A stretch of 64,000 bases of DNA from positions 868,001 to 932,000 of the forward strand of contig NZ_JALKBF010000001.1 in the NCBI RefSeq assembly GCF_023016085.1, in the 5' to 3' direction. The notes beneath the pieces were generated by a model. That model made no database searches and was not told the origin of the DNA. It worked only from the letters and a program-made list of their open reading frames with translations. Positions 21,927-24,214 of the stretch are shown piece after piece. The position numbers and the translations under genes are program-made. How positions within the stretch are numbered: the stretch's first letter is position 1; each line of letters starts with the position of its first letter. This DNA comes from Aliiroseovarius sp. F47248L (GTDB lineage: Bacteria > Pseudomonadota > Alphaproteobacteria > Rhodobacterales > Rhodobacteraceae).

Positions 21927-23192
21927 TCAACGGTCCGGTGGGGTCCAGTCCTTCTCGGGCTCGGCGCCTTGGCGGCGCAGGCGCAGCGCCAACCCGACCG
22001 AGACACCGACGCCGATTGCAATGGTCAAGCCCGCAAACACCGTCAACACCAGCGTCAGCAACAGCAACACACGGTCCGACATGCGCCCCTGCATATAGCC
22101 GCGCCATTTCTGCGGCTCGCTCATGTTCCACGCGGTCAGGATCAACAGCCCCGCCAGAGCAGGCATTGCAAGATACCCGGCCAGCGGGGCGGCCAGCAGC
22201 ATGACCAGCAGGATGGTCAGTGCGTGTATGATTCCCGCAACTGGTGTCTTGCCGCCCGCGCGCACATTGGTTGCTGTGCGCGCAATTGCCCCGGTGGCGG
22301 GTAGGCCGACAAATAGGGCAGATCCAATATTCGCAAAGCCTTGTGCCAGGATTTCAGCGTTGGCGCGATGTTTTCCGCCGATCATGCGATCCGCTACCAT
22401 TGCCGACAGAAGCGATTCAATGCTTGCCAAAAAGGCGATGACGATAGCCGAAGGCAGCAGCTCAGTGATCCGCGCAAGGCTGATTTGGGGCAGGGATGGG
22501 TGTGGTAATGTGCTTGGCAATGGGCCAAACCGCGAATAAATCGTCTCGACAGGCAACGCGGCAATTGCCACCGCGGCCGATGTTAATCCCACCGCAACTA
22601 TCAGACCCGGAAATCTGGGGGCCAATCGCCGCAGAAAGACGATCAATGCCATCGTTACCAGTCCGATCGTGAGTGTTTGGAGGCCTATGGTGTCGCGTGC
22701 GGCCCAAAGTGTGCTCATCTTCGCAATGAACTCAGCTGGCACTTCGGCGATAGACAGGCCGAACAGGTCCTTGATTTGACTGGTGGCGATGATGATACCG
22801 ATGCCAATCGTGAAGCCGTTGATGACGGGTCCGGGCACATAGGCCGCCAGATTGCCCGCTCGCAAATAGCCTGCGGCTATCATGATGGCTCCGGCCATCA
22901 ATGTCGCCAGAACCAGCCCGTCATATCCGTGATCGGCGATGATGCTATAGACAACGACGATGAACGCACCGGTTGGGCCACCAATCTGAACCCGACTACC
23001 CCCAAGAAGTGAAATCAGAAACCCCGCAACAATTGCGGTGACAAGCCCTTTCTCCGGTCCTGCGCCCGAAGCGATCGCAATGGCAAGGCTTAACGGCAGG
23101 GCAACCATGGCAACGGTAACACCTGCGATCAGGTCGCTTGCGAATTGCTCGCGATCATAGTCGCGCAGCGTCGTTAGGATTTTGGGTTTCAT
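21927..23192 (-). CDS. SulP-family anion transporter without a STAS domain
   Basis: 421 residues with about 10-12 membrane helices. The SulP signature is present: DLIAGVTVAMVALPLSLAIA, IGGPTGAFIVVVYSI and VPGPVINGFTIGIG, and the later block ESLLSAMVADRMIGGKHRAN. Most SulP proteins end in a cytoplasmic STAS domain; here the protein stops about 10 residues after the last helix. Substrate may be sulfate or bicarbonate and cannot be told from sequence. Its stop converges on uvrD with 9 bases between. Confidence 0.88.
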   Translation of the reverse strand: MKPKILTTLRDYDREQFASDLIAGVTVAMVALPLSLAIAIASGAGPEKGLVTAIVAGFLISLLGGSRVQIGGPTGAFIVVVYSIIADHGYDGLVLATLMAGAIMIAAGYLRAGNLAAYVPGPVINGFTIGIGIIIATSQIKDLFGLSIAEVPAEFIAKMSTLWAARDTIGLQTLTIGLVTMALIVFLRRLAPRFPGLIVAVGLTSAAVAIAALPVETIYSRFGPLPSTLPHPSLPQISLARITELLPSAIVIAFLASIESLLSAMVADRMIGGKHRANAEILAQGFANIGSALFVGLPATGAIARTATNVRAGGKTPVAGIIHALTILLVMLLAAPLAGYLAMPALAGLLILTAWNMSEPQKWRGYMQGRMSDRVLLLLTLVLTVFAGLTIAIGVGVSVGLALRLRRQGAEPEKDWTPPDR

Positions 23193-23293
23193 GAAGCGAG
23201 CTATGCCGTCTTGCGTCTAAAAATCAATCGACAAAATTGCACGCCTGATATGCCGGGCAGACGTCTGCGGATCGTGCGAAGTGCGGTGTGGCG

Positions 23294-23335
23294 AAAAAAA
23301 CGGTGACGCCCGGGAGGAGGTGGGCGTCACCGTTT
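23294..23335 (-). terminator. intrinsic terminator of the DUF1127-sRNA transcript
   Basis: The 14-bp perfect stem of the last array hairpin runs into seven T on the minus strand (positions 23300-23294). The terminator loop itself contains the CCTCCTCCC motif, so sRNA element and terminator are one structure. It fixes the transcription direction of the array. Confidence 0.88.
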
Positions 23336-23373
23336 CTATGTGAGGCGGGGCTCTGGGAGGAGGTAGAGACCCG
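23298..23373 (-). ncRNA. CcsR/cuckoo-like sRNA, unit 4 (two hairpins, last is the terminator)
   Basis: First hairpin 23346-23373: CGGGGCTCT pairs with AGAGACCCG with one mismatch. Second hairpin 23298-23335: AAACGGTGACGCCC pairs perfectly over 14 bp with GGGCGTCACCGTTT. Both loops carry ACCTCCTCCC. The second hairpin is by far the strongest in the array and is followed by T-rich sequence on the minus strand. Confidence 0.7.
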
Positions 23374-23388
23374 ACGTCATGTGGTTCA

Positions 23389-23454
23389 GGGTCTGGGAGG
23401 AGATAGACCCGTCACCGTATCGGTTCTGCCCCGGGAGGAGGTGGAGAAGAACCG
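23389..23454 (-). ncRNA. CcsR/cuckoo-like sRNA, unit 3 (two hairpins)
   Basis: First hairpin 23421-23454: CGGTTCT pairs with AGAACCG around a larger internal loop holding CCTCCTCCC. Second hairpin 23389-23410: GGGTCT pairs with AGACCC; its motif is the only variant in the array (GGGAGGAGAT on plus). Motif interval 38 bases. Confidence 0.65.
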
Positions 23455-23467
23455 TATCTTTGGGGGT

Positions 23468-23537
23468 GCGGCGACACCCGGGAGGAGGTAGGTGCCGCCG
23501 CGACCCACGAACCTTCAGGGAGGAGGACGAAGGTTCG
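23468..23537 (-). ncRNA. CcsR/cuckoo-like sRNA, unit 2 (two hairpins)
   Basis: First hairpin 23508-23537: CGAACCTTC pairs perfectly with GAAGGTTCG; the loop carries CCTCCTCCC. Second hairpin 23468-23501: GCGGCG and CACC pair with GGTG and CGCCGC with one mismatch. Motif interval 38 bases; the gap from unit 1 is 47, longer than within a unit. Confidence 0.7.
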
Positions 23538-23552
23538 AAACTTGTTGATTGT

Positions 23553-23624
23553 GCGACGGAACCGGGGAGGAGGTCGGTCCCGCCGCCAATCAAAGCCAAC
23601 ACCCGGGAGGAGGTAGGTGCTGGC
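23553..23624 (-). ncRNA. CcsR/cuckoo-like sRNA, unit 1 (two hairpins)
   Basis: First hairpin 23595-23624: GCCAACACC pairs with GGTGCTGGC (one mismatch). Second hairpin 23553-23586: ACCG/CGGT plus outer pairs with two mismatches. Both loops expose ACCTCCTCCC on the minus strand. It begins just past the DUF1127 stop, so it is probably cut from the 3-prime end of that mRNA. The two-hairpin unit is inferred from the motif spacing. Confidence 0.7.
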
Positions 23625-23632
23625 AAGGAAAC

Positions 23633-23848
23633 TTAGTTGCCGTAAACAGCCATACGAGCGACGAACCGGATCGACGAGCGGCCAAGCCCAAGATCGTTCA
23701 GTTCACGATCGCTCAGATCGTTCAGTTCGCGCACGGTTGCGCGGTACTGGGCGCGCTGCTCCATCTGCTCTTTCCAAACGGCGATACGGGCGGCCATGCG
23801 GTCTGCAATGCTGACGGGGGCCGAAAGAATTTCTGTTGCGTATGTCAT
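23633..23848 (-). CDS. DUF1127 protein, probably CcaF1-like RNA-binding protein
   Basis: 71 residues from ATG 23848; a GTG four codons upstream (23860) is possible. The C-terminal DUF1127 signature is clear: YRATVRELNDLSDRELNDLG, then LGRSSIRFVARMAVYG. In Rhodobacter sphaeroides a DUF1127 protein (CcaF1) encoded upstream of the CcsR sRNAs binds RNA and is involved in sRNA maturation. The same arrangement here, with the hairpin array 9 bases after the stop, supports that role. No clear promoter was picked in the C-rich leader. Confidence 0.85.
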   Translation of the reverse strand: MTYATEILSAPVSIADRMAARIAVWKEQMEQRAQYRATVRELNDLSDRELNDLGLGRSSIRFVARMAVYGN

Positions 23849-24214
23849 ATCTTTACTCACTTACATCTCATCCGCAGAACCCTGCGGGGCGGGGCGGCGG
23901 GGCCGCTTTTGTTAACTCTGTTGGCGCTCAATTTGTCGCCTTGACCCCAAGATGGGCATAATGCTGCAGATGCACAATACCCTGCATTCGCAAACCCGAT
24001 ATGCGGCGAGTGCATACTTAAAAATGACACAATATTAATCAGTTGCTGACATATTCTGCGCTGACGTTAGGTAAATTGCTGCATTGCAGAAGGTGTGGTG
24101 TTGGCGTTAACTTTAGGTCAATTCTCGTGGTGCTTGATTTTTGCCCGATGTGTTCAGATCTGAGGCGCGATCCGCGGGCCAGACCTGAAGAAGGATTTAG
24201 GACAGGGGTGCGAT
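23849..24214. other. intergenic region upstream of DUF1127 and the small ORF
   Basis: About 366 bases. On the plus strand 23886-23902 is very G-rich (GGGG-C-GGGG-C-GG-C-GGGG), so the DUF1127 leader is C-rich there. The stretch 24020-24060 is AT-rich and could hold a promoter. A 68-codon reading frame at 24043 shows no family pattern and is not called. Confidence 0.45.

Follow-up and report, generated by a model that had tools for sequence, protein, structure and literature searches.

The minus strand of the analysed window, a 64,000-nt stretch of the Aliiroseovarius sp. F47248L genome, contains an array of eight stem-loops (23296-23624), which lies 3′ of a gene for a 71-aa DUF1127 protein. 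This locus is probably an operon of the ccaF1-CcsR type (CIN1), in which stress would induce both the DUF1127 protein and an eight-hairpin RNA that blocks GGGAGG(A) sites, and which would be controlled by an LsrB-like regulator at a promoter of probable RpoH type. In the mechanism that we propose, a single stress-induced transcript would encode a small DUF1127 RNA-binding protein and carry a 3′ UTR with eight hairpins arranged as four two-hairpin units, and RNase E would be expected to cut this precursor into small RNAs. Each hairpin would offer the same CUCCUCCC seed in its 10-nt loop, while the stems would be free to vary as long as they are stable and differ among themselves. The loops would pair with purine-rich GGGAGG(A) ribosome binding sites and thereby block initiation, chiefly on the mRNAs of periplasmic solute-binding proteins, with eight seeds per transcript giving a higher dose. 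The promoter, probably of the RpoH type, would have two boxes with a spacing of 40 nt, through which an LsrB-like LysR regulator would activate it.

Structure, conservation and strand of the hairpin array

A search of both strands of the window for CTCCTCCC gave eight exact matches, as compared to a mean of 1.61 and a largest value of 6 in shuffles of the window. All eight fall within 23312-23612 of the minus strand. Each copy forms the 3′ part of a 10-nt loop (NNCUCCUCCC), in agreement with the preliminary description, which had reported eight minus-strand stem-loops presenting this motif. The recounted intervals between the motifs, beginning from the DUF1127 end, were also the same as reported there (40, 47, 38, 47, 38, 40, 43). 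Elsewhere in the genome no further array of this exact motif was detected, and all seven two-copy matches (22-50 nt apart) belonged to this locus. In the minimum-energy fold the loops are closed by 9-19 pairs. The loop ACCTCCTCCC is present in hairpins 1 (23595-23624), 2 (23545-23593), 4 (23464-23506), 5 (23421-23454), 7 (23341-23379) and 8 (about 23294-23337), all on the minus strand, as are hairpin 3 (23508-23537), with the loop TCCTCCTCCC, and hairpin 6 (23383-23416), with the loop ATCTCCTCCC. The loop of hairpin 6 reads AUCUCCUCCC, with U in place of the first C of the CCUCCUCCC motif. Several stems are interrupted, which is clearest in hairpins 5 and 7. Hairpin 8 has 16 pairs followed by a T run, which is present in 20 of 21 congeners, and it is probably an array hairpin that doubles as a Rho-independent terminator; it was missed by the terminator scan, which allows loops of 3-8 only.

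The DUF1127 gene (23633-23848, minus strand) matches Pfam PF06568 with 42.8 bits (cut-off 23.3) and encodes a homologue of CcaF1. Its start was placed at a conserved ATG, the methionine of which is invariant in 11 aligned proteins, while an alternative GTG start at 23860 would add four codons. The next gene downstream of the array, also on the minus strand, encodes a SulP (Sulfate permease family) transporter (21927-23192).

To analyze the conservation of the array, 21 congeneric genomes, placed in Aliiroseovarius through their named neighbours, were compared. A short DUF1127 gene is located directly 5′ of the array on the same strand in 21/21 of them, and all 21 retain the eight hairpins, with compensatory changes in the stems. 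For the covariation test, the ten inner pairs of each of the eight hairpins were compared with 500 shuffles. Pairing was observed in 1251 of 1670 cells (shuffle mean 1069), a number not reached in any shuffle, and both sides changed at 58 of 80 stem positions (shuffle mean 43; 0/500 reached 58). The number of further pair types was a weak measure, because its value of 137 (shuffle mean 127) was reached in 15 of the 500 shuffles. When one stem arm was slid, the pairing fell to 35-46%. The arms thus differ in sequence yet stay complementary, as had been described for the window alone. The loops, on the other hand, are constant also at their CCC end: the last C, which was left free by the search word, is present in 166 of the 167 loops that could be read, while the other two bases of this end are already fixed by that word (CTCCTCC).

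By their position the hairpins constitute the 3′ UTR of the DUF1127 mRNA, and the last of them ends in a T run, which could suggest that they mainly protect or terminate this mRNA and have no action in trans. Such a role would need stems, but not the same loop eight times in every one of the 21 congeners while the stems change, and in R. sphaeroides CcsR1-4 are reported to target flhR mRNA. We regard this explanation as very improbable, and prefer an RNA that acts in trans through its loops.

The functional strand of the array is almost certainly the minus strand. Its predicted fold has an energy of −158 kcal/mol versus a shuffle mean of −107 (z −10.1), and none of 100 shuffles was as good. 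The plus strand also folds better than its shuffles (z −4.3) and has GGA in its loops (GGGAGGAGG), as could be expected if it were a CsrB-type protein sponge. This candidate was rejected on the fold z-scores and on the wobble counts, which among 1008 cells showed 115 G-U against 53 A-C combinations, that is, an excess of minus-strand over plus-strand wobbles. The minus strand is also the one that carries the T run, the DUF1127 gene and the conserved upstream region, and we give the sponge almost no credence.

Family membership and hairpin number

The data support the assignment of the array to the CcsR/cuckoo (CIN1) family known from Rhodobacter, and not to a new kind of RNA. When the window was scanned with the Rfam models at their curated cut-offs, a single family was matched, ar14 (RF02344), on the minus strand at 23296-23422 with 63 bits (gathering score 58.8). 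In the whole genome three overlapping ar14 matches were obtained, all at the array locus (63, 58.8 and 39.9 bits), two of them at or above the gathering score and the third below it. The expectation of the preliminary description that the hairpins would score against a cuckoo/CcsR model was borne out with ar14 standing in for a CcsR-specific model. With strict filters, ar14 matches were found in at least 245 of 295 genomes of the family, in at least 37 of them over the cut-off, and in none of 14 control genomes. As is characteristic of cuckoo and ar14 RNAs, CCUCCUCCC is unpaired in every loop, with the deviation in loop 6, while the stems are variable but complementary. Each of the four CcsR RNAs is said, in work ascribed to Billenkamp in 2015, to have two stem-loops with CCUCCUCCC, eight in all, which is the same number as in the array described here.

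The layout of a DUF1127 gene followed by hairpins and a terminator had previously been likened to CcsR/cuckoo loci, and it matches the ccaF1-CcsR1-4 operon of R. sphaeroides, which is reported to consist of a gene for a 71-aa DUF1127 protein and four RNAs, with an RpoHI/RpoHII promoter and a terminator (PMC10253847). The CcsR1-4 transcript is reportedly processed by RNase E, and such associations of DUF1127 genes with RNAs were named the CIN1 locus (PMC10253847). The two loci are alike in the 71-aa DUF1127 gene upstream and in the terminator, while the RpoHI/RpoHII promoter of R. sphaeroides has a putative counterpart here. On the other hand, the genus is different, and LsrB-type boxes are present in the window, while the available parts of the descriptions of CcsR1-4 make no mention of them.

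The founding member of ar14 is NfeR1 of Sinorhizobium meliloti (PMC10746234), which resembles the array in the presence of CCUCCUCCC in every loop, in its variable stems and in a TGCA-N6-GCAT box, which at NfeR1 is bound by LsrB (PMC10746234). In contrast to the eight hairpins behind a DUF1127 gene, NfeR1 is described as a 123-nt transcript with three hairpins and its own RpoD promoter (PMC10746234). NfeR1 is also reported to be Hfq-independent and CcsR to be Hfq-dependent, which suggests that the RNAs may differ in action. The cuckoo RNA family, as described with a thermodynamic matcher, likewise has a conserved loop motif and helices without sequence conservation. Its members are reported to have 2-4 hairpins (PMC4504443), a number that the eight hairpins in one stretch would fit only if cut into smaller units. 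The array extends this known family, as a clean case of eight hairpins conserved across a genus.

To compare the array with those of named relatives, the best 80 of at least 444 confirmed DUF1127 loci were used, which include several species of one genus and are therefore not independent. In 58 of these 80 loci, the DUF1127 match is closely followed by two or more motifs. The arrays contain from 2 to 15 hairpins, and eight is the commonest number (13 loci, four of them from Aliiroseovarius). By the count of CTCCTCC, arrays longer than that of the window contain 15 hairpins in four loci (L071, L117, L120 and L135), and 14 (L123) and 13 (L113) motifs in two others. Hairpin numbers of 2-15 behind the same type of gene form a natural series for the question of why bacteria multiply one antisense seed.

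The alternation of motif intervals, from which four units of two hairpins had been proposed, is weak in the window itself, where the last between-unit interval is 40 and the last within-unit interval 43. The proposal gained support from the relatives: in 46 of the 50 arrays with four or more motifs, the odd intervals are on average shorter than the even ones, and the medians over all intervals are 40 and 65, respectively. The A+T content of the spacers, considered as possible AU-rich RNase E sites, was 0.46 between units and 0.50 within them (with crude trimming of the arms), and this slightly lower value between units gives no simple RNase E signal.

Pairing of the loop and candidate targets

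The loop had been described as identical to the anti-Shine-Dalgarno sequence of 16S rRNA. This statement was too strong, because only ACCUCCU is common to the loop and to the alphaproteobacterial 16S tail, which we take to be CACCUCCUUUCU; a search for the 16S end of the source genome itself gave no match, and the comparison is made with this assumed tail. The predicted pairing of the loop with GGGAGGA has an energy of −13.2 kcal/mol, as compared to −9.8 kcal/mol for the assumed tail, while at the canonical AAGGAGGUGA site the order is reversed (−11.7 kcal/mol for the loop and −16.1 kcal/mol for the tail). The start region of the DUF1127 gene (AGTGAG) pairs poorly with the loop (−3.2 kcal/mol), which suggests that the RNA should spare its own mRNA.

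To obtain candidate targets, the genome was searched for GGGAGGA-N3-10-ATG, which gave 51 matches (50 sites), versus 4 for the reversed-pattern control. Thirty of the 51 loci were taken, and in 25 of them the ATG opened an ORF of at least 100 aa. Eleven of the 25 candidates were signal-peptide-like by a home-made rule, as compared to 72 of 442 sampled genes (Fisher p 0.0016), where the sample consisted of genes that a simple script had called in 20 stretches and the window (464 kb together), and one gene (L190, the same as L217:18628) was present in both sets. Solute-binding proteins, as identified with Pfam, accounted for 7 of the 25 candidate ORFs. In the background, the Pfam scan covered 20 of the 72 signal-peptide-like genes, chosen by length and look, together with one gene already identified among the candidates, and none of the other 370, while all 25 candidates were scanned; hence the number of at least 11 solute-binding proteins among the 442 genes is a lower bound, and the Fisher p of 1.1e-5 for the comparison is too favourable. 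In the same sample, GGGAG precedes 7 of the 11 genes of solute-binding proteins and 17 of the 431 others. Thus, judging from the genome sequence, the start codons preceded by GGGAGGA look enriched for genes of solute-binding proteins. The target candidates of NfeR1 are likewise reported to be mostly ABC transport systems (PMC10746234). On the other hand, the target reported for CcsR1-4, flhR, is not a solute-binding protein.

These data bear on the choice between two roles that the preliminary description had left side by side, sequestering of Shine-Dalgarno sequences and mimicry of the ribosome. As ribosome mimics, the loops would titrate Shine-Dalgarno sequences generally and slow translation globally under stress, and such a role could be favoured by the ACCUCCU core of the assumed 16S tail in the seed, by the pairing that the loop still has at the canonical site, and by the high dose that could be reached with arrays of up to 15 hairpins. 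However, at canonical sites the assumed tail is the better partner, so that the CCC end of the loop is of advantage only at GGGAGG sites, and these are few and seemingly enriched for one gene class. The conservation of this CCC end, including its free last C, and the specific targets reported for NfeR1 (PMC10746234) also argue against a general mimic, which we consider unlikely. The preference of the loop for GGGAGGA sites fits better with specific blocking of mRNAs.

Promoter boxes and the LsrB-like regulator

Two blocks are conserved 5′ of the DUF1127 gene in the 21 congeners, and in the window each of them contains a TGCA-N6-GCAT box on the minus strand. The upstream box TGCACTCGCCGCAT (24001-24014) is a T-N11-A LysR-type site, and the second box TGCATCTGCAGCAT (23961-23974), 40 nt from the first, is located beside a putative −35 element. 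All 21 congeners have one strict box or more, and 13 of them have two, while in others one block deviates, mostly as TGCG. TGCA-N6-GCAT is the reported LsrB site of the NfeR1 promoter, from which LsrB activates NfeR1 (PMC10746234). Among the 58 array loci of the named relatives, 53 have a box, counted in both orientations, in the 300 nt upstream of the DUF1127 match, versus 2.3 expected from shuffles, and none was found in 73 control segments. Two or more boxes are present in 27 of the 58, and 26 of 27 counted pairs have a spacing of 39 or 40 nt. The whole genome contains one other tandem box pair of this kind.

A strict box is absent from five array loci, which are L102, L111, L132 and both Paracoccus loci (L096 and L110). 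In one of these, that of Stappia albiluteola (L132), the DUF1127 gene is followed by three motifs, and the 420 nt upstream contain no TGCA-N6-GCAT box. A box within 420 nt was also found in 17 of the 22 DUF1127 loci with no detected array, four of which end less than 900 nt downstream, which suggests that the box goes with the DUF1127 promoter and not with the array. Such boxed genes include DUF1127 genes of Roseobacter and Sulfitobacter (L088, L112, L128, L140 and L141), where a second box-like pair at about −285 to −360 perhaps belongs to the neighbouring gene. Upstream of the first box, the block TTCTGCAATGCAGCAATT (24074-24091, minus strand), with similar sequences in many congeners, resembles the motif reported for VtlR, CAATGCAGCCATGCA.

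The putative RpoH-like promoter (23949-23977, minus strand) consists of TTG (23977-23975), an 18-nt spacer and CCCATCTT (23956-23949). TTG directly precedes the second box (TTGTGCA) in 21/21 congeners, and CCCAT follows 18 nt on in 17/21, while this pattern is less regular in the named relatives. The fit to the reported elements of RpoHI/HII promoters, −35 TTG and −12 TAT (PMC10673084), is only partial, as CCCATCTT does not contain TAT; the E. coli −10 consensus was also used for comparison. The promoter is probably of the RpoH (heat-shock) type, with the sigma factor inferred from these elements.

LsrB has been called unique to Rhizobiales, where it is described in an operon with trxB (PMC11975290). 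As a query we used the LysR gene of Stappia albiluteola that adjoins trxB, taken as LsrB by synteny. Of 80 genomes from the family to which the window belongs, 77 gave one match each (E at most 1e-40), including all 73 with a completeness of 90% or more and a contamination of 5% or less; the three genomes with no match are incomplete. In the source genome the best match, located at C1:788734-789594, has 277 bits and 47% identity, as compared to 127 bits and 32% for the next LysR protein, and its identity with the Stappia protein is 75% in the DNA-binding domain (59 aligned residues) and 39% in the rest. Hence, by these similarities, the LsrB-like gene is probably orthologous to LsrB. Trees of LysR proteins, of which the later one was built without L174 and had a wrong own_L182 row, did not settle the orthology and were set aside. 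In NCBIfam the protein received no specific name (best match 157.8 versus a cut-off of 470 bits). In contrast to LsrB of Rhizobiales, the gene is not located beside trxB in the source genome, where trxB is adjoined, as judged by eye, by an Lrp-type gene.

The box type and the related LysR regulator are reminiscent of the control of AbcR RNAs, NfeR1 and DUF1127 genes reported for LsrB/VtlR in Rhizobiales, and both systems have DUF1127 proteins and anti-Shine-Dalgarno RNAs among their products. In the searchable literature, which mostly does not include subscription papers, no report was found of a link between LsrB/VtlR and the DUF1127-CcsR loci of Rhodobacter relatives. The pattern of promoter, regulator and targets suggests one regulon across the two orders, and binding of the LsrB-like protein to these promoters would mean that work on Rhodobacter and on Rhizobiales describes the same regulon. 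We see an even chance for the wider proposal that a redox regulator of the LsrB/VtlR type is general in the Rhodobacter family and activates DUF1127-cuckoo operons through two-box promoters, and probably SorX as well, that this regulator, DUF1127 and anti-Shine-Dalgarno RNAs directed at solute-binding proteins form one old regulon of both orders, and that the hairpin number (2-15) is an evolvable dose. A forward-only search for TGCA-N6-GCA in the 300 nt preceding the LysR gene gave matches at 2 of 20 loci (L170 and L173), which gives no sign of general autoregulation.

SorX, which in R. sphaeroides is reported to derive from the 3′ UTR of an OmpR-type gene, contains ACCUCCC. A match to SorX (RF02784) was observed just 3′ of the LsrB-like gene in 7 of the 20 loci (L164, L167, L169, L170, L172, L173 and L177), including that of the source genome (L164:1126-1207, minus strand, near C1:788.4 kb). 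In 4 of these 7 loci a strict box, in either orientation, is located within 160 nt before SorX.
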